Positions 12,934 through 24,418 of a DNA stretch of 64,000 nt are shown one piece after another. The position numbers were made by a program, and so were the translations under genes. Source of the stretch: Variovorax sp. PBL-E5 (GTDB lineage: Bacteria; Pseudomonadota; Gammaproteobacteria; Burkholderiales; Burkholderiaceae_C); NCBI RefSeq assembly GCF_901827185.1, contig NZ_LR594671.1, positions 4,428,001 to 4,492,000 on the forward strand, given 5' to 3'. How positions within the stretch are numbered: position 1 is the stretch's first letter; each line of letters starts with the position of its first letter. The notes under the pieces were generated by a model. The model made no database searches. It worked only from the letters and a program-made list of their open reading frames with translations, and was not told where the DNA came from.

Positions 12934-13037
12934 ACGCGGCGGACCGGTCCTCAGCAAATGCCCGGGGACGCATCCGACCCCGCATGATGTAACGTCCTGT
13001 TCCTACTCAAACACAGCCTTTCCCTGGAGCCCTGACC

Positions 13038-14531
13038 ATGTTGAAACGCCGCACCCTTCTGACCACCGCCGCACTGGCCACCGTGCCGCTCGCACTGCCG
13101 CACGCCGCGCTCGCGCAGGGCCGCAAGGACTCGATCGTGATCGGGATGGCGCTCGAACCGCCGGGCCTGGACCCGACCGCAGGCGCGGCGTCCGCCATCG
13201 CCGAGATCGTGCAGTACAACATCCTCGAGACGCTGACCAAGATCAACGCGGACGGCAAGGTCACGCCGCTGCTGGCCGAGAGCTGGGAGGTCTCGCCCGA
13301 CCTGCGCACCTACACCTTCAAGCTGCGACGCGGCGTCAAGTTCCAGAACGGCGAGCCCTTCAATGCGCAGACCGTGAAGTTCTCCTTCGACCGCGCCGGC
13401 GGCGACAAGAGCACCAACAAGGACAAGCGCACCTTCGCCAACATGAGCACCCAGGTGGTCGATGACAACACGGTGGTGGTCATCAACAAGGAGATCGATC
13501 CCGACCTGCTGTTCCTGCTGGGCCAGGCCACCGCGGTCATCGTCGAGCCGAAGAGCGCCGACGGCAATGCCACCAAGCCGATCGGCACCGGGCCCTACAA
13601 GCTCGACAGCTGGGCCAAGGGCTCCTCGCTGGTGCTCAGCCGGTGGGAGGGCTTTCGCAGCCCGGGCACGGCGAAGATCAACAAGGTCACCTTCCGCTTC
13701 ATCTCCGACCCGGCCGCCCAGGCTGCCGCCGTGCTGGCCGGCGACGTCGATGCCTTCCCGCGCATCGCGACGCGCGTCGTGCCGCAGTTCAGGAACAACC
13801 CGCAGTTCCAGGTCATCCTCAGCGGCTCGCTGGCCAAGACCATCCTGGCCATCAACAACAAGCACAAGCCGCTGGACGACGTGCGCGTGCGGCGCGCCAT
13901 CCTCGCGGCGATCGACCGCAAGGCGGTGATCGAAGGCGCGGTCGACGGCTTCGGCGTGCCGATCGGCAGCCACTACGTGCCCGGCGCGACCGGCTATGTG
14001 GACACCACCGGCATCAATCCGTTCAACATCGAGAAGGCCAAGCAACTGTTGGCCGAAGCCGGCGTGAAGACGCCGCTCGAGCTCACCATGACGCTGCCGC
14101 CGCCGCCCTACGCGCGCCAGGGCGGCGAGGTGATCGCGGCGGAGCTCGCCAAGATCGGCATCAACGTCAAGGTGCAGAACGTCGAGTGGGCGCAGTGGCT
14201 GAGCAACACCTACGGCGGCCCGCACAACTACGACCTCACGATCGTCTCGCACGTCGAGCCCTTCGACCTCGGCAACTACGCCAAGGCCGACTACTACTGG
14301 GGCTACCAGTCGAAGGCCTTCGACACGGTGTACGACAAGATCAAGACCACCGGCAACGCAGCCGAGCGGGCCAAGCTGCTCGGCGATGCGCAGAAGATCC
14401 TCGCGACCGATGCCGCCAACGGCTTCCTGTTCCAGCCCCAGTGGCCCACCGTCGCCAAGAAGAACGTCAAGGGCCTCTGGAAGGACATGCCGATCTTCGT
14501 CAACGACCTGGCGGCGTTGTCGTGGGCATGA
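13038..14531 (+). CDS. extracellular solute-binding protein, family 5
   Basis: Periplasmic binding protein for the upstream transporter, 497 residues. The N-terminus MLKRRTLLTTAALATV has a signal peptide ending at ALAQG, with a paired arginine that may allow Tat export. Family 5 landmarks: PPGLDPTAGAASA, ETLTKINADGKVTPLLAESW, and LRRGVKFQNGEPFNA. The family binds di- and oligopeptides, nickel or other small ligands; the particular ligand is not readable. Its separate position after a 104-base gap may allow its own promoter and higher expression. Confidence 0.92.
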   Translation: MLKRRTLLTTAALATVPLALPHAALAQGRKDSIVIGMALEPPGLDPTAGAASAIAEIVQYNILETLTKINADGKVTPLLAESWEVSPDLRTYTFKLRRGVKFQNGEPFNAQTVKFSFDRAGGDKSTNKDKRTFANMSTQVVDDNTVVVINKEIDPDLLFLLGQATAVIVEPKSADGNATKPIGTGPYKLDSWAKGSSLVLSRWEGFRSPGTAKINKVTFRFISDPAAQAAAVLAGDVDAFPRIATRVVPQFRNNPQFQVILSGSLAKTILAINNKHKPLDDVRVRRAILAAIDRKAVIEGAVDGFGVPIGSHYVPGATGYVDTTGINPFNIEKAKQLLAEAGVKTPLELTMTLPPPPYARQGGEVIAAELAKIGINVKVQNVEWAQWLSNTYGGPHNYDLTIVSHVEPFDLGNYAKADYYWGYQSKAFDTVYDKIKTTGNAAERAKLLGDAQKILATDAANGFLFQPQWPTVAKKNVKGLWKDMPIFVNDLAALSWA

Positions 14532-14540
14532 GCGCCGCGC

Positions 14541-14580
14541 CGGGCCGCCCCAAGCAAGCTCGCTCCCGCCTGGCGGGAAG
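14541..14580. repeat. short intercistronic GC-rich repeat with hairpin
   Basis: The SBP-amidase gap carries GCCCCAAGCAAGCTCGCT followed by a hairpin TCCCGC-CTG-GCGGGA (14564-14578). It resembles the CCCC..GGCTTGCTC part of the element at 7680-7775 on the complement. It may attenuate amidase transcription. The relation is by eye only. Confidence 0.3.
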
Positions 14581-14604
14581 GCGCGGAGCGCCAAGGGTGC
14601 GCCA

Positions 14605-16011
14605 ATGACCGGCGCTCTGTACGACCTGTCGGCGCAGGAACTCGTCGCCGCCTACCGCGAAGGCAAGCTCTCTCCGGTCGAGGTCACGCGCTCGGTGCTC
14701 GACCACGTCGAGCGCTGGGAGCCGCATCTGCGCGCCACCTGGCTGCTGCGGCCGGACGCCGCGCTCGAACAGGCGCGCGCCTCCGAAGCGCGCTGGCGCC
14801 GCGGCGAGCCGGCCGGCCCGCTCGACGGTGTGCCGACCACCATCAAGGAGAACATCGCGACCCGCGGCGATCCGATGCCCTCCGGCACGGCTGCCGTCGA
14901 TCTGCGGCCCGCGGCCGCCGATGCACCGCCGGCCGCGCGGCTGAAGGAAGCCGGCGCGGTGATCGTGAGCAAGACCACCATGCCCGACTACGGCATGCTG
15001 TCGTCGGGCCTGTCGAGCTTCCACACGCTGGCGCGCAATCCCTGGGACCTGGCGAAGACGCCGGGCGGATCGAGCGCCGGTGCCGGCGCCGCGGCTGCGG
15101 CCGGCTATGGCCCGCTGCACATCGGCACCGACATCGGCGGATCGCTGCGGCTGCCGGCCGGCTGGTGCGGGATCTTCACGCTCAAGCCCAGCCTCGGCCG
15201 CATCCCGATCGACCCGCCCTACATGGGCCGCGCCGCCGGGCCGATGACGCGCACCGTGGGCGATGCCGCATTGATGATGCAGGTGCTGGCGCAGCCCGAC
15301 GCGCGCGACAGCATGAGCCTGCCCGCGCAGGACATCGCGTGGTCGTCCTTCGATGTCGCGGCCGACCACCTGCGCGGCCTTCGCATCGGCCTCTTGCTCG
15401 ACGCCGGCTGCGGCCTCGCGGTCGAGCCCGAGATCCGCGCGGCCGTCGAGCAGGCGGCGCGCCTCTTCGAGCGCGCCGGCGCCATCGTCGAGCCGATGCA
15501 GCCTTTCATGTCGCAGGCGATGCTCGACGGCATGGACCACCTGTGGCGCATGCGCTCGCGGGTCGACATGAATGCGCTCAGGCCCGAGCAACGCGCCAAG
15601 GTGCTGCCCTACATCCGCGAATGGGCCGACAGCGCGGAGCGCTTCAGCGGCGAGCACGTGTTCCGCGCCTTCAGCCAGTTCCACACGACGCGCGTCGCGA
15701 CGGTGGCCGCCTGCGCGGCATACGACTACGTGATCTCGCCGACCGCGCCCAATCCGCCCGCCGCAGCCGAAGCGCCCTCGCCCACCAACGACCCGCTGCG
15801 GCCGCTCGAACACATCGGCTTCACCGTGCCGTACAACATGTCCGAGCAGCCGGCGTCGTCGATCAATTGCGGCTACACCGCCAGCGGCCTGCCGATCGGG
15901 CTGCAGATCGCGGGGCAGCGCTTCGACGATCTCGGCGTGCTCAAGGTCTCGCGCGCCTTCGAGCTGATCCGCGAAACGCAGCGGCCCTGGCCGCAGCCGC
16001 CGCGCAGCTGA
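14605..16011 (+). CDS. amidase (amidase signature family)
   Basis: Hydrolase of 468 residues with the Ser-cisSer-Lys triad: Lys81 in GVPTTIKENIA, the cis-serine in PGGSSAGAGAAAAAG (Ser156/157) and nucleophile Ser180 in TDIGGSLRLPA. Members act on aryl or aliphatic amides, peptide amides or carbamates; substrate cannot be set from sequence. There is no signal peptide, so it is cytoplasmic. It lies 73 bases after the binding protein, suggesting that the imported compound is an amide cleaved by this enzyme. Confidence 0.92.
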   Translation: MTGALYDLSAQELVAAYREGKLSPVEVTRSVLDHVERWEPHLRATWLLRPDAALEQARASEARWRRGEPAGPLDGVPTTIKENIATRGDPMPSGTAAVDLRPAAADAPPAARLKEAGAVIVSKTTMPDYGMLSSGLSSFHTLARNPWDLAKTPGGSSAGAGAAAAAGYGPLHIGTDIGGSLRLPAGWCGIFTLKPSLGRIPIDPPYMGRAAGPMTRTVGDAALMMQVLAQPDARDSMSLPAQDIAWSSFDVAADHLRGLRIGLLLDAGCGLAVEPEIRAAVEQAARLFERAGAIVEPMQPFMSQAMLDGMDHLWRMRSRVDMNALRPEQRAKVLPYIREWADSAERFSGEHVFRAFSQFHTTRVATVAACAAYDYVISPTAPNPPAAAEAPSPTNDPLRPLEHIGFTVPYNMSEQPASSINCGYTASGLPIGLQIAGQRFDDLGVLKVSRAFELIRETQRPWPQPPRS

Positions 16012-16047
16012 GTCCGGCCCGGGCCGCCCGCCGCGCGGCCCGGTGCC

Positions 16048-16608
16048 TCAGGCTTGCGGCCTCGCGGTCATCGCATCGAGGGCCCGCAGGAACTGCTGCA
16101 TCTTGTCCTCGAAGACGGCACAGGCCGCGACCCGCACGAGCCCAGGATGATCAGTCCACAGCGCCAGGATGCGCGCCGCGATGCGCGAGGACTCCTCGGC
16201 CGTCTCCGACCTCACCGCGTCGCCGACGAAGTGCGCGGGCGCGCCTTCCATGAAGATGACGCCGTCGTAGCGCTGCAGTTCGAGCGCCTGCGAACTGCCC
16301 ACCGTGCGCCAGAAGTCCTGCGCGCCTTCGGGCCAGTAGGCGGCTGCATCGAGCGTGCCACGATCGGTGAGCACGATGTCGCAACGCCGCGCAGCGGACT
16401 CGCGCCGCAATTGCTCGGCATGGATGCGCAGCTGCAAGGCCCGGCGTTCGGCGGCCGGCATGCCGTCCTGGCAGACCGGCTGCTCGCGCAGCAGATCCGC
16501 GGCCACTTCGGTCACGACATCGATCCGTGCAGGATCGCGCAGCCGCGCTCGCTGGACCGCCGTCGTCTTGCCGCTGCACGAGCCGCCGGTGACCGCGATC
16601 CGCATCAT
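16048..16608 (-). CDS. small P-loop ATPase/kinase-like protein (AAA_28 / NadR-kinase-like)
   Basis: A 186-residue protein starting MMRIAVTGGSCSGKTTAVQR, with a Walker A at 8-16. A Walker B-like DIVLTDRGTLDAAAYWP and helical lid-like region follow. It resembles the stand-alone P-loop ATPases related to the NadR ribosylnicotinamide kinase domain, which phosphorylate small molecules. It is the last gene of a four-gene operon; its start codon overlaps the stop of the aminotransferase gene (ATGA). It may phosphorylate the pathway product. The substrate is unknown and an NAD link is not shown. Confidence 0.75.
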   Translation of the reverse strand: MMRIAVTGGSCSGKTTAVQRARLRDPARIDVVTEVAADLLREQPVCQDGMPAAERRALQLRIHAEQLRRESAARRCDIVLTDRGTLDAAAYWPEGAQDFWRTVGSSQALELQRYDGVIFMEGAPAHFVGDAVRSETAEESSRIAARILALWTDHPGLVRVAACAVFEDKMQQFLRALDAMTARPQA

Positions 16609-17825
16609 GCGCTGACGCGTCGCAACGCATCGGCCAGCTCGCCGGCCGCGAGCGCGTCGCGACAGGCAGCGAGCCATGCGTCCACGTCCGCCGCGGTGTG
16701 GGACAGCGACAGGTAGTTCATGTGATTCGGCAGCCAGACCATCCGGCGCTCGAGCAGCGCATGGCTGAAGCGCCTGGACAGTTCCGCTGCCGCGAGCCGG
16801 TCGCCGGAGATGAAATCGACGTGCGGCATTGCCGGCCATCGGTACGGCATCGCCTTCACGGCAAACGACACGCCCACCGCTGCAGCCACGCGATTGAAGC
16901 CTTCGATCATCCGCGTGCCGAGGCCGGCCAGGCGACCTGCGAAGTCCGGCGCCGAACGCAGCACGTCGAGGGTCGCGAGCGCCGCGGCGATCGAGCAGGC
17001 TTCACCGTTGTAGGTGCCCTTGATCCGGCACTCGGCGGTATGCCGCAGCACCGGCTCGGCCGCCAGCACGGCCGACAGCGGAAAGCCGTTGCCCAGCGCC
17101 TTGCCCACCACCGTGAGGTCCGCGGCCACGCCCAGCAGCGCCTGCGCGCCGCCGAGTCCCAGGCGCAGCGAGGTCTTGGTCTCGTCGAAGATCAGGAGCG
17201 CGCCCAGCCGGCGTGCCGCCTGCAGACAGGCCATGGCCGACGCCTGCAGCGGCTCGCGCAGCTGCACCGGATCGATCACGATCGCGGCCACGCCGCGTCG
17301 ATCCTGCCGCGCCATGTCGAACAAGGCATCGAGGTCACACCCATCCCAGGGCCAGACGTCCTGCGCGACCGCCGCGGGCACACCCGGCACGCGTTCGAAC
17401 GGCTGCGCGCCGGCATCATGGTCGTGGTCGTGCCATTTGCGATGCGGCGCGATCGAGGCATCGTGCCAGCCGGTGAAGCCCGAGCGCACGATGCGATCGC
17501 GGCCGGTGAAGGCGCGCGCGAGCCGGATGGCGGCACTGACGGCCTCGGACCCCGTCTTGAAGAACAGGCAGCCATCGGCGTGCGGAAAGAACGAAACCAG
17601 CGCCTCCTGCAAGCTGTCGACACAAGGCGGCGCGTAAGGAAAGAGCACGCCGCGCGCCATCTGCTCGGCGACGGCTGCGTTGACCCGCGCATCCGCATGG
17701 CCGAGCAGGATCGGGCCGTAGCTGCAGGTGAAATCCAGGTAGCCGTTGCCCGATTCGTCGAACAGCGTCGCGCCCGCGCCGCGCACGAAGCGGATGCCTT
17801 CCAGCTTCTTGACGTTGTCCGGCAT
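16605..17825 (-). CDS. class III PLP-dependent aminotransferase (glutamate-1-semialdehyde mutase-like)
   Basis: A fold-type I PLP enzyme of 406 residues. The PLP-anchoring lysine is Lys242 in VVGKALGNGFPLSAV and the pyridine-nitrogen aspartate is Asp214 in IFDETKT. FFKTGSEAVSAAIRLARA (88-105) and SGFTGWHD (115-122) are characteristic of the glutamate-1-semialdehyde aminomutase branch. A true HemL is unlikely: the protein is in a non-heme operon and the GNG replaces the usual GGG. It probably installs or moves an amino group in a small-molecule pathway. It is coupled to both neighbours by overlaps. Confidence 0.88.
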   Translation of the reverse strand: MPDNVKKLEGIRFVRGAGATLFDESGNGYLDFTCSYGPILLGHADARVNAAVAEQMARGVLFPYAPPCVDSLQEALVSFFPHADGCLFFKTGSEAVSAAIRLARAFTGRDRIVRSGFTGWHDASIAPHRKWHDHDHDAGAQPFERVPGVPAAVAQDVWPWDGCDLDALFDMARQDRRGVAAIVIDPVQLREPLQASAMACLQAARRLGALLIFDETKTSLRLGLGGAQALLGVAADLTVVGKALGNGFPLSAVLAAEPVLRHTAECRIKGTYNGEACSIAAALATLDVLRSAPDFAGRLAGLGTRMIEGFNRVAAAVGVSFAVKAMPYRWPAMPHVDFISGDRLAAAELSRRFSHALLERRMVWLPNHMNYLSLSHTAADVDAWLAACRDALAAGELADALRRVSA

Positions 17826-18853
17826 CAGCCTGCACTGGCAGTGACGCCGGCCCGCTCGACGATGGCATCCAGCACGGTGTAGACCGGCACGGCCTCGCGC
17901 AGCGTCGGCGACGATGCGGGCCCGCCGGCCACGGCGGAGAGAAAGCACTGCAACTCGTGCACATAGCCTGCCAGGTCGAGCGCGTCGTCGAGCGCGCCCG
18001 GCTGCCATGCGGCCGCGGTATCGCGCGCCTCGCCGGGCGACACGATGCGCAGTGCGCTGAAATTCTCCGTGCGGATGGCATCGCCGCCGTCGCCGAAGAC
18101 CGAGAGATCCAGGCCGAAGCGGGGCGCGCCGTTCGTCATCTGGAGCCGGGTGCGCAGGCCGGCGGCGTGCTGCGCGTCCATCGTGATGAGCACGCCGCCG
18201 GAATCCGGATCGTGCTCGATGCGGGACTCGACATCGTGCATCGGCCCGAACAGGAAGCTCACGAGATCGATCAGGTGCGCGCCGTGCGTGAGCAGGAAGG
18301 ACTTCGCGACCGATCCGGAATTCCAGCGATCCTCGCGCGGCCAGCGGGCGACATAGTTGCCGACGCACAGCGCGGGCGAGCGCAGCGGGTGGCGCGCGAG
18401 ATGCTCCCGCAGCCGCCGGAAGATCGGCGCATGCCTGAAGTTGTGCCCGACCTGGGTGTGAAGGCCGAGGCGCTCCGCGAGCGCGGCATTCTCGGCGAGC
18501 ACGCGATGGCTGGATGCAGGCGGTTTCTCGACGAAGACATGCACGCCCGCTTCGAGCAGGCGCCGGGTCAGGTCCTGATGCGCCGACGGGGTGGCGCAAA
18601 GGAACGCGCCATCGAGCTCGCAGCGCAGCAGCGCATCGACATCGGCCAGCGCCAGCGCGACGCGGTGCCTGCGCGCGAGCGCGGACGCCGCCGCGATGTC
18701 CGCATCGCACAGCGCGACCAGTTCGAAAGCCGGCGCATGCACTCTTTGCAATGCGGGCAGCAGGGTGTTCGTCGCATGCTCGCCGCAGCCGATGAGCGCC
18801 ACCCGCAGCGGCCGCCCGCTGCGAGGATCGAGAGGCCGCGGCTCAACGGACAT
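17825..18853 (-). CDS. Gfo/Idh/MocA family NAD(P)-dependent oxidoreductase
   Basis: A 342-residue dehydrogenase. The Rossmann motif GCGEHA (22-27) is followed by acidic residues after beta-2 (CDAD, 49-52), the conserved EKPPASS (109-115) and the HNFRH motif (137-141) expected near the substrate. The family oxidises or reduces sugars, inositols, UDP-sugars or similar polyols. Its last base is the first base of the aminotransferase start, which suggests an oxidation/transamination sequence in the same route (keto group, then amine). The substrate is not known. Confidence 0.9.
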   Translation of the reverse strand: MSVEPRPLDPRSGRPLRVALIGCGEHATNTLLPALQRVHAPAFELVALCDADIAAASALARRHRVALALADVDALLRCELDGAFLCATPSAHQDLTRRLLEAGVHVFVEKPPASSHRVLAENAALAERLGLHTQVGHNFRHAPIFRRLREHLARHPLRSPALCVGNYVARWPREDRWNSGSVAKSFLLTHGAHLIDLVSFLFGPMHDVESRIEHDPDSGGVLITMDAQHAAGLRTRLQMTNGAPRFGLDLSVFGDGGDAIRTENFSALRIVSPGEARDTAAAWQPGALDDALDLAGYVHELQCFLSAVAGGPASSPTLREAVPVYTVLDAIVERAGVTASAG

Positions 18854-20411
18854 CCGTGCGCTCGAAGTAGGGCACGTTGCCGTAACGCGCCCGGTAGGCC
18901 GAGAACGCGCGCACGGTCGAAGCGCTCAGACTGCCTTCGGCCGCCTCCTCGATCTGCTGCAGCGTGAAGAAGTCCAGCGACCGGGTCAGCCCCGGCCGCA
19001 TGATGCGCGGCGCGCCCGACACCAGGCGGCCGAGGTAGGAGACCACGTACCACGATTGCCGGTCGTGGCCCCGTTCGAGAAAGGTGATCGGCCGCACCTC
19101 GAGCAGCTTGTCGATCTCGACCGAGACCTCCGGACCGAGCTTGTCGGCGATCTCTTCCCTCAGCGCCGCGAGCAGGTCCGTGCGCAGCCCGAGCTCGCCG
19201 CCGATGCCTTCGTGGCGGTCGACCTCGTCGCGTGCCAGCTCGCCCCGGCGCTGCAGCAGCACACGGCCCTGCGCATCGAAGAGATGCGCCTCGACGGCAA
19301 TGCGATGGCCGTCGAGCGAATAGTTCTCCGCGGCCAGATGCCGCTTGAGTTCGGCCAGCGTGCCGATCAAGGCCGACGCATCGCCGCCCGCAGGGGCCGC
19401 CGGCCGAAAGGCGACGGCGTACTCGGTCGAACGTTCGAGCGCATTCTTTTGCCACACCGGATAGGGCTCCCACGGATCCTTGGCGCTGCGCCGGAAGCGC
19501 GGCACCAGCGTCGCGCGCTGCGGCGTGACCCGGATCAGGTTGTACGACCAGGGCGTGGCCAGCGGCAGTTCGCGCGCGCTGGCGGCGAGGCTGCCGGCGC
19601 CCATCACGTGCAGCACCCGTCCATCGTCGGCCAGTTCGTAGAGCAGCCGCTGGGTCCGCACCTCGTGCGTGTGGCCGTGCAGCGCGAGCCCGAAACCGAT
19701 CTGCGCCAGGCGCCGGGCAAAGGCGGCATCGCGGATGCGGTCGTCGCCATGGCTGTCGAGCGGATGGTGCCAGACGGCGATCTTGTTGAGCTCGCGGTAG
19801 CGCGGCGTGCGCACCAGTTGCTTGATGGCGCGGTCGAAGCCGTTCGCATGGATGCCGGCATCCTTGTCCTGCACGTGGTTCAGGTTCCAGGCCGAGTTCA
19901 GGGTCAGCACCAGCAGGCCGGCATCCTCGAGCACGTGGATGTGGAACTGGTCTTCGTACGCGAGCGGAAAGGCCACGCCCGAGACGGCCAGCTGGAATGC
20001 CGCATAGGCGGTGAAACGTTCGCGGTAGGCCACCTCGTCCGCGCGATAGCGGAAGGCGGCATTCTGCGGATCGGGAAAGAACAGGCCCGCGGCGCTGCGC
20101 CGGCTGGCCCGCTGCCGCGTCAATGCGGCCTTCGACGCCGCCCAGGACACATCGTGGTTGCCCGGCGCCACGACCATGCCGTCGTCGGGCACCTCGAACG
20201 CGGCGCGCAGTTCGCTCAGCAGGTCCAGCGCGAGCGCATATTGCGCGTCGGTCGCATGGTTGGTGACGTCGCCGCTGACGATGATGGCCCGCAGGCGCTC
20301 GCAGGCCAGGTCGTGCCTGAGGTCGACTTCCAGGGTGCCGAGCAGTCCGTCGACCTGCTCTCGCGACTCGACGTGCAGGTCGGATATGTGCAGGACATCA
20401 TGGGACACCAT
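18843..20411 (-). CDS. metallophosphoesterase with C-terminal Nudix-like domain
   Basis: A 522-residue, apparently two-domain protein. Residues 5-250 form a calcineurin-like phosphoesterase with its five metal motifs: DLH (11-13), GDVTNH (47-52), GNHD (84-87), HHP and GHTHE. From about 360, HRIAVEAHLFDAQGRVLLQRRGE looks like the core of a Nudix fold, with a Nudix-box-like segment GGELGLRTDLLAALREEIAD ending near 423. The box has extra spacing (REEIADKLG), so hydrolase activity is unsure. No signal peptide. First gene of the four-gene operon, overlapping the oxidoreductase by 11 bases. Candidate substrates are nucleotide-linked or phosphorylated metabolites; this is inference. Confidence 0.82.
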   Translation of the reverse strand: MVSHDVLHISDLHVESREQVDGLLGTLEVDLRHDLACERLRAIIVSGDVTNHATDAQYALALDLLSELRAAFEVPDDGMVVAPGNHDVSWAASKAALTRQRASRRSAAGLFFPDPQNAAFRYRADEVAYRERFTAYAAFQLAVSGVAFPLAYEDQFHIHVLEDAGLLVLTLNSAWNLNHVQDKDAGIHANGFDRAIKQLVRTPRYRELNKIAVWHHPLDSHGDDRIRDAAFARRLAQIGFGLALHGHTHEVRTQRLLYELADDGRVLHVMGAGSLAASARELPLATPWSYNLIRVTPQRATLVPRFRRSAKDPWEPYPVWQKNALERSTEYAVAFRPAAPAGGDASALIGTLAELKRHLAAENYSLDGHRIAVEAHLFDAQGRVLLQRRGELARDEVDRHEGIGGELGLRTDLLAALREEIADKLGPEVSVEIDKLLEVRPITFLERGHDRQSWYVVSYLGRLVSGAPRIMRPGLTRSLDFFTLQQIEEAAEGSLSASTVRAFSAYRARYGNVPYFERTDVR

Positions 20412-20465
20412 GGCGCCGAAGTGTCTCCCGCTGCGACCTCGAAAGCAAGCGGGCCGGCCCGGGAT

Positions 20466-21326
20466 TCAGACGAGATGCGAGGCCAGCAGCTCGCGTGCGC
20501 GCGTCACGAAATCGCTTTCGCCGCGCCGTGCCGGAAGGAAGTGGAAAGCCACGCGCGGCAGCGCTGGCAAGCCATGCGGCGGCGCCAGCCGCGCCACGCC
20601 TTCGCTGAGGGCCGACTCGTTGAGGCAGGCCACGCCCAACCCCGCGGCCAGCGCCGACTGCAGCCCCGCCACGCCCGACGCCACGTGGGCGATGGAGAAA
20701 GGCAGCTGCCGGCGACGCAGCAGCCGGACGGTGAACTGGTGCAGCGAACAGGTATCGGGCAGCACCAGGAGGCGCAGCGGCTCGCCGCGCGCGATGCGCA
20801 TGCCCGTCGCGCCCATCCAGGCCAGCGACTCGCGCCGCAGCACCGCCATGCCCGGCTTCGCAGGGCCGATGCCGACGATGCGCATCGACAGCCCGACATC
20901 GAAATCGCCGCCTGCGTAGCCGGCCTCGATGGCGCCGCTCTTGAGCACGCTCACATGCAGGCGCACCCGGGGATAGTTCTCGCCGAGACGGCCCAGCAGG
21001 CGCGCCAGATCGCCGGGCCGGAAATAGTCGGTGACCGCGAGGCGGAGTTCGCCCTGCAGCGTCTCGCCGCGCAGGTCGCGCCAGGCCTCGTCGCTCATCG
21101 CCAGGATCCGCCGCGCATGCGCGATGAGCCGCGTCCCGGCGGAGGTCGGCGCCACGCCGGCCTTGCTGCGCGTGAGCAGCGGATGGCCGGCCCGCGCCTC
21201 GAGCTTGCGCATCTGCTCGCTCACCGCGGACTGCGAGAGGAAGACTTGCGGCGCCGCGGCGGTGAGGCTGCCGGCATCGACCACGGCGACGAGGGTCTTC
21301 AGCTGATCGAGATCGAATGCCTGCAT
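20466..21326 (-). CDS. LysR family transcriptional regulator
   Basis: A 286-residue LTTR. The N-terminal winged HTH (about 4-62) is clear: FDLDQLKTLVAVVDAGSLTAAA and LSQSAVSEQMRKLE. A LysR substrate-binding domain follows (about 88-286, starting GELRLAVTDYF). It is divergent from the tautomerase gene with a 109-base intergenic region and ends 54 bases before the four-gene metallophosphoesterase operon on the same strand. Targets are probably its own gene and the tautomerase. Effector unknown. Confidence 0.93.
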   Translation of the reverse strand: MQAFDLDQLKTLVAVVDAGSLTAAAPQVFLSQSAVSEQMRKLEARAGHPLLTRSKAGVAPTSAGTRLIAHARRILAMSDEAWRDLRGETLQGELRLAVTDYFRPGDLARLLGRLGENYPRVRLHVSVLKSGAIEAGYAGGDFDVGLSMRIVGIGPAKPGMAVLRRESLAWMGATGMRIARGEPLRLLVLPDTCSLHQFTVRLLRRRQLPFSIAHVASGVAGLQSALAAGLGVACLNESALSEGVARLAPPHGLPALPRVAFHFLPARRGESDFVTRARELLASHLV

Positions 21327-21350
21327 GTGCTATCCATTCGTGAAACCGAT

Positions 21351-21384
21351 GACATCCATCATATCTTCCCGCTTTTCAGATGTC
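21351..21384. promoter_or_regulatory. possible LysR-type operator between LysR and tautomerase genes
   Basis: Inverted repeat GACATC-N22-GATGTC in the divergent intergenic region, surrounded by AT-richer sequence than its neighbourhood. LysR proteins often bind interrupted dyads in such positions. The half-sites are short, so chance occurrence is possible. Confidence 0.25.
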
Positions 21385-21435
21385 TTTGGCAACCCAACAA
21401 TGAAGCCACGTTCATTCATCTCCAAGGACAGCACC

Positions 21436-21834
21436 ATGCCGCACATCGTCATCCATCTCTCCGGCCAGCCCGACGCGCAGCTCACCCGCAAGGTCGTCGA
21501 CCGCGTGACCGAACTCACGCGGACCGTGCTCGACAAGAAGTTGCCGGTGATCGCGATCACCGTGCAGTACATCGCGGCCGATGCCTGGTTCGTCGGCGGC
21601 CAATCGCTGGCGGAGCTCGGCAAGTCGGCCTTCCACCTCGACATCAGCATCAGCGACGAGACCAACACCAAGGCCGAGAAGGCGCGCTACCTGCACGAGG
21701 TCTACGACGCGATGGCCGCGCTGCGCGGCAATCTGCACGAGGTGTCGTACATCCACGTGATCGACGTCCGCGCCACCGCCTACGGCTACGGCGGCCGGAC
21801 GCAGGAATACCGGCACCAGCAAGCGGGCGTCTGA
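21436..21834 (+). CDS. tautomerase superfamily protein
   Basis: A 132-residue protein starting Met-Pro (MPHIVIHLSGQPD). Removal of Met would expose the catalytic Pro1 of the 4-oxalocrotonate tautomerase fold. The length is about twice that of the 62-residue 4-OT subunit and closer to the trimeric MIF/CHMI-like members. RRTQEY-like residues near the end (GGRTQEYRH) could bind carboxylate. It is divergent from and probably controlled by the adjacent LysR protein. Reaction and substrate cannot be told. Confidence 0.82.
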   Translation: MPHIVIHLSGQPDAQLTRKVVDRVTELTRTVLDKKLPVIAITVQYIAADAWFVGGQSLAELGKSAFHLDISISDETNTKAEKARYLHEVYDAMAALRGNLHEVSYIHVIDVRATAYGYGGRTQEYRHQQAGV

Positions 21835-21894
21835 GCCAGCGGCGGCCGGGCGTGGCACCATGAAGGGGTTTCGAACTCCGACCCGGGAACCGCC

Positions 21895-23262
21895 TTGCGT
21901 TCAGCGCCCTCCGCCACCGACAGCCTCGGCAATCCGGTCACGCTCGCCGACACCGCGAGCCTGCCGCGCATCGATGATTTCGTCGAGGGCTTCATTTCCT
22001 GCGAAGCGCGCGCGGCCGAGGTGCTCGCCGCCGCCGAGGACCCGAGCCCGATCGTGCAGGCTTACTGCGCGACGCTGCACCTGTTCGCCGAATCGCGCGA
22101 TGCCGTGGCCGACGCGCGGCCCTTCCTCGCGCGCGCACGCGCCGGCGCCGCGCAGGCCACCAGCCGCGAACAGCGCTACATCGCCGCCATCGAGGCCTGG
22201 GCCGAGGGCGACATCGCGCGCGCCATCGCGCTGCACCACGCGCAGGCGCGCGAGCATCCGCGCGATCTCGCCTCGCTCAAGCTGGGCCAGTACCACTGCT
22301 TCAACACCGGCGACTGCCCCGGCATGCTGCGGCTCGCGCTGGCCGCGCTGCCGGCCGCGGCCGACGTGCCCTACCTGCACGGCATGCTGGCCTTCGGCTA
22401 CGAGCAATGCCACCTGATGCGCGAGGCCGAGGCCAGCGCGCGGCGTGCGATCGCGATGGAACGCAAGGAGCCCTGGGCCCATCATGCGCTGGGCCACGTG
22501 ATGCTCACCGAAGGCCGCCTGAGCGAAGGCCTGGACTTCATGCAGGGCGTCAGCGACACCTGGGTCGGCCTCAACTCCTTCATGGTGACGCACAACTGGT
22601 GGCACGTGGCGCTGTTCCTGATCGACCTGGGCCGCGATGCCGAGGCGCTCGCGGTCTACGACGAACGGGTGTGGGGGGTGGTCAAGGACTATTCGCAGGA
22701 CCAGATCGGCGCGGTGTCGCTGCTCGCGCGCTTCGAACTGGCGGGCATCGACGTCGGCACGCGCTGGCAGGACCTGGGCGGCTATCTGGCGCAGCGGCTC
22801 GATGACCACGTGTTGCCCTTTCTCGATCTGCAGTATCTCTACGGACTCGCGCGGGCCGGCCGGCCCGAGGCCGACATGCTGCTGCGCCACATCGACGCCT
22901 TCGCACCGCAGGCGCCGGCATCGACGCGCGCCGCATGGACGCGTGTCTGCGTGCCCGCCGCGCACGGCCTGCTCGCGCATGCGCGCGGCGACTTCGCAGC
23001 GGCAGCGGAAGGCCTGGGGATCGCGCTGCCGCGGCTGGTCGAGATCGGCGGCAGCCATGCGCAGCGCGACCTGTTCGAGCAGGTCTACCTCGATGCGCTG
23101 ATCCGCATCGGCAGCGAATCGGCCCTGGCCGGGGCGCAGGGCATTCTTCAGCAGCAGGTCAACGGCCAGGCCGAATCGCTTCGCCTGCGCCGCCAGGCCG
23201 ACGCGGTGCACGCGCGGCTCGGCCTGCCGGCCTTCAGCGCAGGTAGGCCTGCACCAGCGTGA
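21895..23262 (+). CDS. TTC38-like tetratricopeptide repeat protein
   Basis: A 455-residue helical-repeat protein with no signal peptide. The central THNWWHVALFLIDLGR segment and the repeat layout resemble the tetratricopeptide repeat protein 38 family, found in bacteria and animals with no settled function. The start is a TTG at 21895 (MRSAPSATDSLGNP); no ATG is nearby upstream. It follows the tautomerase by 60 bases in the same direction and its 3' end overlaps the convergent M20 gene by 29 bases. Confidence 0.82.
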   Translation: MRSAPSATDSLGNPVTLADTASLPRIDDFVEGFISCEARAAEVLAAAEDPSPIVQAYCATLHLFAESRDAVADARPFLARARAGAAQATSREQRYIAAIEAWAEGDIARAIALHHAQAREHPRDLASLKLGQYHCFNTGDCPGMLRLALAALPAAADVPYLHGMLAFGYEQCHLMREAEASARRAIAMERKEPWAHHALGHVMLTEGRLSEGLDFMQGVSDTWVGLNSFMVTHNWWHVALFLIDLGRDAEALAVYDERVWGVVKDYSQDQIGAVSLLARFELAGIDVGTRWQDLGGYLAQRLDDHVLPFLDLQYLYGLARAGRPEADMLLRHIDAFAPQAPASTRAAWTRVCVPAAHGLLAHARGDFAAAAEGLGIALPRLVEIGGSHAQRDLFEQVYLDALIRIGSESALAGAQGILQQQVNGQAESLRLRRQADAVHARLGLPAFSAGRPAPA

Positions 23263-24418
23263 CCCAGAAGCTGGCGGTGCCCGGCAGGATCTCGTCGTTG
23301 AAGTCGTAGCCGGTGTTGTGCACCATGCAGCCCGGGCCGCCGCCCGGCGTGCCGTCGCCGTTGCCGACGATGAAGTAGCTGCCCGGCACGACGTTGAGCA
23401 TGAACGCGAAGTCGTCGCTGGCCTGCAGCGGCGCCATGCCGGCGATCAGCGCCTTCGGCCCCATCGATTCGAGTGCCACCTGCCGCACGAACGCGGTCGC
23501 GGCCTCGTCGTTGATGCAGGGCGGCGTGCGCCATTCGTAGGCCACCTTCGCGCTCGCGCCATGCACCGCCGCCTGGGCCTGCGCCATCGCCGTGATCCGC
23601 TTGCGCAGGAAGGCCCGCACCTCGGGCCGGCGCGCGCGCACGGTGAGCTTGAGCTCGGCGCCGGCCGGAATCACGTTGGGCGCGTGGCCGGCGTGCATCG
23701 CGCCGACGGTGACGACGGCCATGTCGTTCGGATCGACCTCGCGCGAGACCAGCGTCTGCAGCGCCAGGATCAGGTGCGCCGCGACCATGATCGGATCGAC
23801 CGTGGTGTGCGGCATCGCGCCATGGCCGCCCTTGCCTTCGATGGTGATGACCGCGGTGTCCGAGGAGCTGTAGATCGGCCCCGGCAGAAAGCCGAATTGC
23901 CCCGCGGGAAAGCCCGGCTCGTTGTGGAAGGCATAGATCGCGTCGCAGGGGAAGCGCTCGAACAGGCCGTCGTCGACCATCTTCTGCGCGCCCTGCAGGC
24001 CTTCCTCGGCCGGCTGGAAGATCAGGTTCAGCGTGCCGTCGAAGCCTTTGGCAGCGGCCAGCACCTGCGCGGCCGCGAGCAGGGTCGCGGTGTGGCCGTC
24101 GTGGCCGCAGGCATGCATGCGGCCCGGCCGCCGGCTGGCCCAGCCAAGCCCGGTGGTCTCGGTCATCGGCAAGGCATCCATGTCGGCGCGCAGGCCCAGC
24201 CGCCGGGTGCCGCTGCCGAGCTTGAGCGTGCCGACCACGCCGGTGCCGCCCAGGCCGCGGTGCACCGCATAGCCCCAGCGCGCAAGGCGTTCGGCCACCA
24301 GCGCACCGGTCTCGAACTCCTCGTAGCCGAGCTCGGGGTTGGCATGGATCCGGCGGCGCAGCCCGATCATCTCCTCGGTGGAAGCCTGGATGCCGGGATG
24401 CACGGGAACGGGAATCAT
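23234..24418 (-). CDS. M20 family amidohydrolase (carboxypeptidase Ss1/hippurate hydrolase type)
   Basis: Cytosolic metal-dependent amidohydrolase of 394 residues. Metal and catalytic residues appear as MHACGHDGH (Cys104, His106) and QPAEEG (Glu138-Glu139), followed by the dimerisation domain and GGHGAMPHTTVDP. This branch removes acyl groups from N-acyl amino acids (hippurate, N-acetyl amino acids, IAA conjugates). It is divergent (92 bases) from a peptide-type binding protein and transporter, so it probably processes an imported N-acyl amino acid or peptide. The true substrate is unknown. Confidence 0.93.
   Translation of the reverse strand: MIPVPVHPGIQASTEEMIGLRRRIHANPELGYEEFETGALVAERLARWGYAVHRGLGGTGVVGTLKLGSGTRRLGLRADMDALPMTETTGLGWASRRPGRMHACGHDGHTATLLAAAQVLAAAKGFDGTLNLIFQPAEEGLQGAQKMVDDGLFERFPCDAIYAFHNEPGFPAGQFGFLPGPIYSSSDTAVITIEGKGGHGAMPHTTVDPIMVAAHLILALQTLVSREVDPNDMAVVTVGAMHAGHAPNVIPAGAELKLTVRARRPEVRAFLRKRITAMAQAQAAVHGASAKVAYEWRTPPCINDEAATAFVRQVALESMGPKALIAGMAPLQASDDFAFMLNVVPGSYFIVGNGDGTPGGGPGCMVHNTGYDFNDEILPGTASFWVTLVQAYLR

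Follow-up and report, generated by a model that had tools for sequence, protein, structure and literature searches.

Four activities are described for the pathways to 3'-aminonucleosides: Pur10 is an NAD-dependent ATP dehydrogenase, Pur4 is an aminotransferase, Pur7 is a Nudix hydrolase, and Pur3 is a monophosphatase (PMC9239236, PMC11641026). pur10, pur4, and a putative pur7 are also reported from Bradyrhizobium (PMC4070871), and the adg operon carries an MFS gene, adgA (PMC9239236). Metallophosphoesterases (MPEs) are described in defence systems: in DS-8 (MPE-NACHT) and DS-9 (MPE plus HAD), the metallophosphatase residues are needed for defence, and the substrate is reported as unknown (PMC13092281). 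Calcineurin-type phosphoesterases were described in eLife in 2020 as the most frequent effector of one class of conflict systems (PMC7159879), and the same effector theme appears in PMC8195603. Here we compare these systems with a four-gene cassette from Variovorax sp. PBL-E5, which lies in a window of 64,000 nucleotides (the whole stretch of DNA that was analysed). The window is on contig C1, one of 4 in a genome of 7.09 Mb. We favor, with a probability of roughly 0.42, the reading that the cassette encodes a small intracellular pathway to an amino-deoxy nucleotide or nucleoside, with the logic of the puromycin and 3'-amino-3'-deoxyguanosine routes.

The cassette comprises four genes, identified from the list of open reading frames (ORFs) and from Pfam:

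20411-18843, minus strand: gene 1, MPE joined to a Nudix-fold domain, 522 amino acids
18853-17825, minus strand: gene 2, Gfo/Idh/MocA oxidoreductase, 342 amino acids
17825-16605, minus strand: gene 3, class III (glutamate-1-semialdehyde-aminomutase-like) aminotransferase, 406 amino acids
16608-16048, minus strand: gene 4, P-loop small-molecule-kinase-like protein (AAA_28), 186 amino acids

All four ORFs are uninterrupted. In the order 1 to 4 they overlap by 11, 1, and 4 bases, and the last two overlaps are TGATG (genes 2/3) and ATGA (genes 3/4) junctions. Gene 1 matches Metallophos (45.2 bits) and NUDIX (23.2 bits, just exceeding the cut-off of 21.1), gene 2 matches the N- and C-terminal GFO_IDH_MocA domains, gene 3 matches Aminotran_3 (134 bits), and gene 4 matches AAA_28 (83.3 bits). 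The first-pass annotation of this DNA had described four coupled minus-strand genes with these overlaps, which is exact at 20411-16048, and Pfam backs all four of the families that it named. It named no described system with this combination, and we found no paper describing such a four-gene operon; nor did any paper of the library searched combine anti-phage, phosphoesterase, Nudix, and aminotransferase, and the one with six related terms is about iron in Bacteroidetes. We consider the operon to be beyond chance because each frame encodes a full-length protein family and because the block is absent from the homologous site in all 20 aligned relatives.

The cassette is a discrete insertion that entered as one block, between an amidase gene (plus strand) and a LysR gene (minus strand):

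16032-20452: cassette-specific interval; the homology of relatives ends at or before 16031 on the left and begins at or after 20453 on the right

In one relative (L133), left-flank homology extends to 16031 and right-flank homology starts at 20453, with the two flanks overlapping by 10 bases. The amidase and LysR genes are less than 100 bases apart in 10 of the 20 relatives that we fetched; nine others have a gap of 0.4-2.2 kb, and one (L142) is without the amidase. We searched 61 genomes of the genus, including its own, with 13000-23300 as the query. Among the matches listed, where a second copy would have ranked high, the cassette is found in its own genome only. Similarly, gene 1 is present in 1 of 399 genomes of the family, and that one is its own.

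To find more distant relatives, we searched 5.8 billion proteins and scored the 8000 candidates that shared the most words. For gene 1, there are 16 full-length MPE-Nudix relatives (33-60% identity) and the near-identical P0006 (99%), whose contig has the same size as the contig of a kinase from Variovorax sp. SRS16 (93% identity to gene 4, whose closest named relative it is). The gene 4 kinase has 6 relatives at E <= 1e-5. For gene 3, a clade profile gave 392 bits or more for 40 further proteins and at most 334 bits for the next (119 were scored; the profile was built from 13 of the 40 and the window's own protein).

The database reports the longest contig for each entry, and we took identical contig sizes to suggest a shared contig; the contigs themselves were unread. 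By this proxy, an MPE-Nudix protein (P0007), a clade aminotransferase (P0057), and a kinase (P0052) are on one contig of 6039 bases, and an MPE-Nudix protein and an aminotransferase are together on contigs of 38999 bases (P0009 and P0059) and 6227 bases (P0013 and P0068). These matches suggest that MPE-Nudix, clade aminotransferase, and kinase share contigs. A size-matched clade aminotransferase is found for 3 of the 16 MPE-Nudix relatives, or for 3 of the 12 whose contigs have 6 kb or more; among background aminotransferases, 0 of 78 compared (of 79) share a contig size (label shuffle, p = 0.036). A further, independent link of gene 1 to gene 3 comes from P0087, in which this Nudix domain (33% identity over 160 residues, E = 1e-28) and a clade aminotransferase (542 bits) are naturally fused.

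Nine of these 12 relatives on the longer contigs have no size-matched clade aminotransferase, so the full set is not obligate. Eight of the nine belong to the subgroup P0014-P0022, whose contigs are as long as 316 kb; this suggests that these MPE-Nudix proteins have another partner set or are a stand-alone form. The first-pass annotation had placed the four genes in one pathway and had proposed a search for conserved co-occurrence. Entry as a single cassette, the P0087 fusion, and the three metagenomic contigs that seem to share parts of the set all speak for one pathway; the nine unmatched relatives speak against it. We conclude that the four-gene set is real, rare, and discrete, and probably one functional unit.

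Genome scans for the parts were mostly empty; without a positive control, such empty answers are weak. A scan found 70 loci with MPE-only relatives of gene 1, none aligning past residue 389, and neither the partner proteins nor the Nudix domain had a tblastn match in 75 loci of MPE relatives. With the aminotransferase clade profile, the best score in 8 genomes and in 386 genomes from the phylum of L010 (an Acaryochloris locus) was 321 bits, which is in the background range. The Nudix profile matched only the genome itself, plus two at 37-38 bits, in 398 genomes of its own phylum; there was one match, of 38.6 bits, in 235 genomes from the phylum of locus L052, and no viral contig matched. The oxidoreductase profile matched 0 of 246 genomes, its own only among 259, and no phage record at 1e-8. 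By eye, we saw no partner enzyme among ORFs of at least 130 residues near a Photobacterium relative of the kinase, and no aminotransferase or Nudix among ORFs of at least 150 residues at a Microvirga oxidoreductase locus. Viral contig L089 (5634-9236) has a distant oxidoreductase (27% identity over part) near a distant class III aminotransferase relative (31%), neither of them close.

Gene 1 has two domains:

19452-20402, minus strand: MPE domain, residues 4-320 (11 motif residues, fold matches)
18942-19307, minus strand: Nudix domain with a degenerate box, Pfam stretch at residues 369-490 (Pfam, alignment, fold matches)

In the MPE domain, D11, H13, D48, N85, H86, H215, H216, H245, G246, H247, and H249 are identical in all 17 aligned proteins. 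The box of Nudix hydrolases is GX5EX7REUXEEXGU. The three glutamates (E/E/E) are complete in just 2 of the 17 proteins, and the window's protein has E, D, and K. Other Nudix residues are identical in 17 of 17 (R389-G390, R394-D395-E396, E401, G404-G405, W454, and S458-Y459-L460). The AlphaFold model of gene 1 has a mean pLDDT of 85.1 and a pTM of 0.67. Foldseek matches of the MPE half include Rv0805, SMPDL3A, GpdQ, and 9a6c_B (chain B of a YydD-YydB model); those of the Nudix half include 4dyw and 3ees. The Nudix fold thus matches MutT-type proteins, but the box glutamates are incomplete. The likely activity of the MPE half is that of a metal-dependent phosphodiesterase or phosphatase acting on nucleotides. 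The Nudix half, without a conserved catalytic box, is more likely to bind a nucleotide, as a sensor or specificity module, than to hydrolyze it; it seems to be a Nudix fold that turned into a binding domain. The first-pass annotation had both halves hydrolyzing phosphates or nucleoside diphosphates; the degenerate box went unnoticed, and so did the conflict-system type of the MPE domain.

That type is apparent from the nearest MPE relatives outside the family, which are 20 proteins (P0023-P0042) with 340-395 bits and 34-39% identity over 60-64% of gene 1. In a Pfam scan of 7 of the 20, P0023 has HEAT, P0027 has HEAT and EAD8, P0030 has EAD1, P0042 has EAD8, and P0039 has AAA and a sub-threshold EAD7; P0031 has the MPE alone, and P0035 has no other domain in 902 residues. 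A more distant MPE relative, P0050, has NACHT (Pfam). In a tree of MPE domains, P0023-P0042 form one group (support 96/97) beside the MPE-Nudix proteins, which form at least two groups. Gene 1 also has distant matches in NCBIfam to DS-9 (76.5 bits, cut-off 420) and DS-8 (40.2 bits, cut-off 790), and weak matches in PADLOC to Effector (35.9 bits), PDC-S60 (34.6), and PDC-S10 (13.5). As a side observation, P0035-P0038, P0040, and P0041 are proteins of 796-908 residues that end in this MPE domain, preceded by 466-578 residues without a listed Pfam domain (this is from a column of the database, and only P0035 was rescanned). Their N-terminal part may be an undescribed sensor.

So we also considered that the cassette might be an anti-phage system, in which three enzymes make a small molecule, the Nudix domain senses it, and the MPE destroys nucleic acid or the nucleotide pool on infection. 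This would fit with the closeness of the MPE domain to P0023-P0042, with the DS-9, DS-8, and PADLOC matches, and with an insertion that is patchy and discrete. It would also fit with the requirement for the metallophosphatase residues in DS-8/DS-9 (PMC13092281) and with calcineurin-type phosphoesterases being the commonest effector of one conflict-system class (PMC7159879). But the scores are far below the cut-offs for DS-9 and DS-8, the Pfam scan of the cassette has no NTPase, EAD, or recognizable invader sensor, and genes 2-4 have no PADLOC match at E <= 0.1. Among the neighbors, which were not scanned with a defence library, we recognized no defence genes by eye. And although the effectors and the MPE-Nudix proteins are neighbors in the tree, its root is unresolved. 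We think that an anti-phage system of this kind is an unlikely but credible explanation.

The differences from the described systems are also in the architecture. The relation to DS-8 and DS-9 is at the level of MPE profiles, with intact MPE motifs in the cassette; but the cassette has no NACHT or HAD partner, and its MPE-Nudix protein is accompanied by biosynthetic enzymes. The conflict-system MPE fusions (with EAD, HEAT, or NTPase domains) include the nearest relatives, but gene 1 has no EAD or HEAT, and a C-terminal Nudix domain takes the place of the N-terminal adaptor.

The context of gene 2's relatives is our best lead to a nucleotide pathway, which it appears to support in part. In gene 2, E109-K110-P111 and H193/D196 are identical in the 4 proteins that we aligned. 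A tblastn search with gene 2 against 72,556 plasmid records gave 62 records at E <= 1e-6, and 60 of these were listed. Six records had E <= 1e-15 and 90-118 bits (four from Mycetohabitans, one from Rhizobium, and one from Pantoea); the other 54 listed had at most 71 bits. We opened three distinct loci, one from each of these genera, and in all three, a Gfo/Idh oxidoreductase, a DegT aminotransferase, and a NUDIX protein are side by side. Each cluster has a HAD hydrolase nearby, and those of Mycetohabitans and Pantoea have an mtnP phosphorylase. The Rhizobium cluster has a weak AAA_28 protein (22.2 bits, cut-off 27) and a HAD phosphatase. As a control, of 6 annotated loci that ranked lower, none has both an aminotransferase and a Nudix within 3 kb, and one (Kitasatospora) has a DegT aminotransferase. 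The first-pass annotation had proposed an amino-polyol, amino-sugar, or nucleotide-linked product, and of these, the nearest plasmid relatives favor the nucleotide-linked one, although the support is partial.

The three plasmid clusters (L153-L155, from Mycetohabitans, Pantoea ananatis, and Rhizobium sp. BT04) thus have the closest plasmid oxidoreductases, at 25-31% identity. They resemble the cassette in having an aminotransferase and a Nudix adjacent and, in Rhizobium, the weak AAA_28 match. They differ from it in that their aminotransferases are of the DegT type, their Nudix proteins are separate, and no MPE is annotated. The Mycetohabitans megaplasmid (L153, 7800-16284) and the Pantoea plasmid (L155, 7258-16768) have a long cluster in common, with Gfo/Idh, DegT aminotransferases, NUDIX, an FAD enzyme, HAD, a fatty acid desaturase, and mtnP, and this looks like a nucleoside natural-product cluster. 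On the Rhizobium sp. BT04 plasmid (L154, 5854-16481), the cluster of Gfo/Idh, DegT, NUDIX, HAD, and AAA_28-like genes adjoins genes annotated as RtcR and RtcB (RNA repair).

Gfo/Idh enzymes and class III aminotransferases often act on sugars. This is one reason to consider ordinary amino-sugar or amino-cyclitol metabolism, in which the product of genes 2 and 3 would go to a surface polymer or to catabolism and the kinase and the phosphoesterase would be housekeeping enzymes. The solved relative of gene 2, PDB 3m2t, is labelled only as a probable dehydrogenase; with a profile built from the four oxidoreductases it scores 430 bits (the next structure has 99). More distant relatives of gene 3 are fused to nucleotidyltransferase domains, which one source labels SpsF. 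And in Kitasatospora, the neighbors of the related oxidoreductase include a sugar-nucleotide dehydrogenase and a glycosyltransferase. A tree of 12 oxidoreductases places gene 2 (P0002) in one group with Kitasatospora and the three cluster enzymes (support 93/90); P0002 and the three cluster enzymes alone are one side of a branch in 2% of bootstrap trees. However, the cassette has no glycosyltransferase, nucleotidyltransferase, or transporter (Pfam), a conflict-type MPE and a Nudix fold would be unexpected for sugar catabolism, and the oxidoreductase has its three closest plasmid lineages in clusters that bear a Nudix. We regard amino-sugar metabolism as rather unlikely.

Gene 3 has the family match of class III aminotransferases and the catalytic lysine that holds PLP: K242 is invariant in 39 of 39 aligned proteins. 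It scores far under the cut-off of every NCBIfam family among the 25 of 67 that were listed, and the DegT aminotransferases of the look-alike plasmid clusters are not significantly similar to it. Judged by sequence, it is a member of a distinct, rare aminotransferase clade. Plasmid aminotransferases from Massilia, Streptomyces, Methylomagnum, and Haloprofundus scored 342, 316, 288, and 268 bits with profile A2, and we judged them to be outside the clade; the members of the clade were scored with profile A4 only (392-683 bits), and the scales of A2 and A4 are not identical. Two of these plasmids have neighborhoods worth describing. In Massilia litorea (L085, 6884-10185), the gene for the related class III aminotransferase comes first in a compact set of three, ahead of those for a SAM methyltransferase and an ATP-grasp protein. 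In Streptomyces sp. NBC_01601 (L086, 1-15080), there are a class III aminotransferase, methyltransferases, nucleotidyltransferases, Gfo/Idh, three NUDIX, MazG, and HIT.

Gene 4 has an intact P-loop (GGSCSGKT) and a DRGTLDAAAYWPEG motif, with the unusual pattern DRGTxDxAAYWPEG. Its model is confident, with a mean pLDDT of 89.7, and sequence profiles found no convincing solved relative. The first-pass annotation called it NadR-like, of which the match to the broad AAA_28 family is what remains.

Returning to an amino-nucleotide product, the likeness in gene logic to the 3'-aminonucleoside pathways is clear as an analogy: adgB-E of Photorhabdus luminescens and pur10-pur4-pur7-pur3, as described, likewise have dehydrogenase, aminotransferase, Nudix, and phosphatase activities in one cluster. 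We propose that the Gfo/Idh enzyme would oxidize a hydroxyl of a nucleotide's sugar to a ketone, and that the class III aminotransferase would convert the ketone to an amine. Control over the phosphorylation state of the substrate or the product would fall to the P-loop kinase and the MPE-Nudix protein. As a binding module, the Nudix fold might hand a nucleotide to the MPE or gate it. The product would stay in the cell, where it could plausibly be a defence metabolite or a signal that controls the MPE. We infer the nucleotide substrate, the order of these reactions, the sensor role, and any defence role.

The MPE, with its intact motifs, could also serve for the Pur3 monophosphatase step. This raises another explanation: that the cassette makes a secreted nucleoside antibiotic, or is a remnant of self-resistance, with the MPE dephosphorylating a product that leaves the cell. 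The adgB-E/pur gene logic would fit with this. But no exporter or resistance gene lies between the flanks, whereas adg, as described, has the MFS gene adgA (PMC9239236), and the kinase gene at the end of the operon opposes the release of a free nucleoside. A secreted product is very unlikely. The lack of an exporter and the presence of a kinase favor action inside the cell, which is possibly phage defence.

Other features set the cassette apart from adg and pur. Its aminotransferase is class III, its Nudix domain is fused to an MPE and degenerate (E, D, K in the box instead of the E, E, E of a Pur7-type active Nudix, and not recognizably similar to the Nudix proteins of the look-alike clusters), and there is an extra P-loop kinase. 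We did not assign the cassette to the pur/adg or the DS-8/DS-9 families because defining features that we looked for are missing: the full Nudix box and the exporter for pur/adg, and a score above the family cut-off and a NACHT or HAD partner for DS-8/DS-9.

Several results weigh against our proposal of an amino-nucleotide pathway. The aminotransferases of the look-alike clusters are DegT and not class III, and the Nudix domain of gene 1 has no significant similarity to the clusters' Nudix proteins (best E 0.014, 5 bits, in a set of 16). Pur and adg were compared by their described activities; the comparison of sequences was with the look-alike plasmid clusters. Kitasatospora, with its neighbors that resemble sugar enzymes, is inside the group of P0002 and the cluster enzymes, and the support for that group is moderate (93/90). 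The linkage of the parts is read from the sizes of unread contigs, where the label shuffle reaches p = 0.036 only, and most MPE-Nudix relatives on the longer contigs had no matched aminotransferase.

If our proposal is correct, then one operon combines puromycin-type amino-nucleotide chemistry with a defence-type phosphoesterase, and it offers a concrete candidate for the substrates of metallophosphatase defence proteins such as DS-8 and DS-9, whose substrate is open as reported. Even if the defence role is wrong, the cassette would still make an amino-modified small molecule with a compact set of four genes. A more specific version is a mobile cassette for a new kind of chemical immunity. Here, oxidation, transamination, and phosphorylation would yield an intracellular amino-deoxy nucleotide, coupled to the MPE effector by a repurposed, non-catalytic Nudix sensor. 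The nucleotide itself would be an antiviral chain-stopper, or it would act as a second messenger for gating the MPE. An analogy, and no more, is with viperin-like chain terminators and their associated kinases. We consider this version to be distinctly unlikely.

Around the cassette, we noted these features:

16014-16023, plus strand: left copy of the 10-base direct repeat CCGGCCCGGG (word search, 64 kb window)
20454-20463, plus strand: right copy of the same repeat (word search, 64 kb window)
16019-16043: inverted repeat CCGGGCCGC-7-GCGGCCCGG, between the convergent ends of the amidase and kinase genes (read in the sequence)
20466-21326, minus strand: LysR-type regulator gene, directly upstream of the cassette after a 54-base gap, and common to relatives

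The 64 kb window contains CCGGCCCGGG exactly two times, once at each end of the cassette and in the same orientation. It may be a trace of the cassette's entry, or it may be chance in GC-rich DNA: of 20,000 random pairs of segments with matching sizes, 136 have a word of this length in common. The inverted repeat is a possible shared transcript end; it is absent from the output of a terminator scan, which requires a T run.

A defence island or prophage as the setting was not supported. By eye, the neighbors look like ordinary genes for ABC transporters, amidase, LysR, and cytochrome oxidase. The GC content of the stretch resembles that of its surroundings, and there is no full-length MPE-Nudix in the phage, plasmid, and viral collections. 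An insertion hotspot was also unconvincing: the slot is empty (less than 100 bases) in 10 of the 20 relatives, and 8 of the 9 loci with a gap have a similar membrane-like gene. At the position of the cassette, between amidase and LysR, these eight loci (L143-L150) carry a gene whose product has 208-209 residues and resembles a membrane protein, which we take to be YitT-like. The LysR gene is outside the cassette but may drive its expression, and the sole promoter-like match of the stretch (21386-21358, with 0.3 expected by chance) is ahead of this gene.

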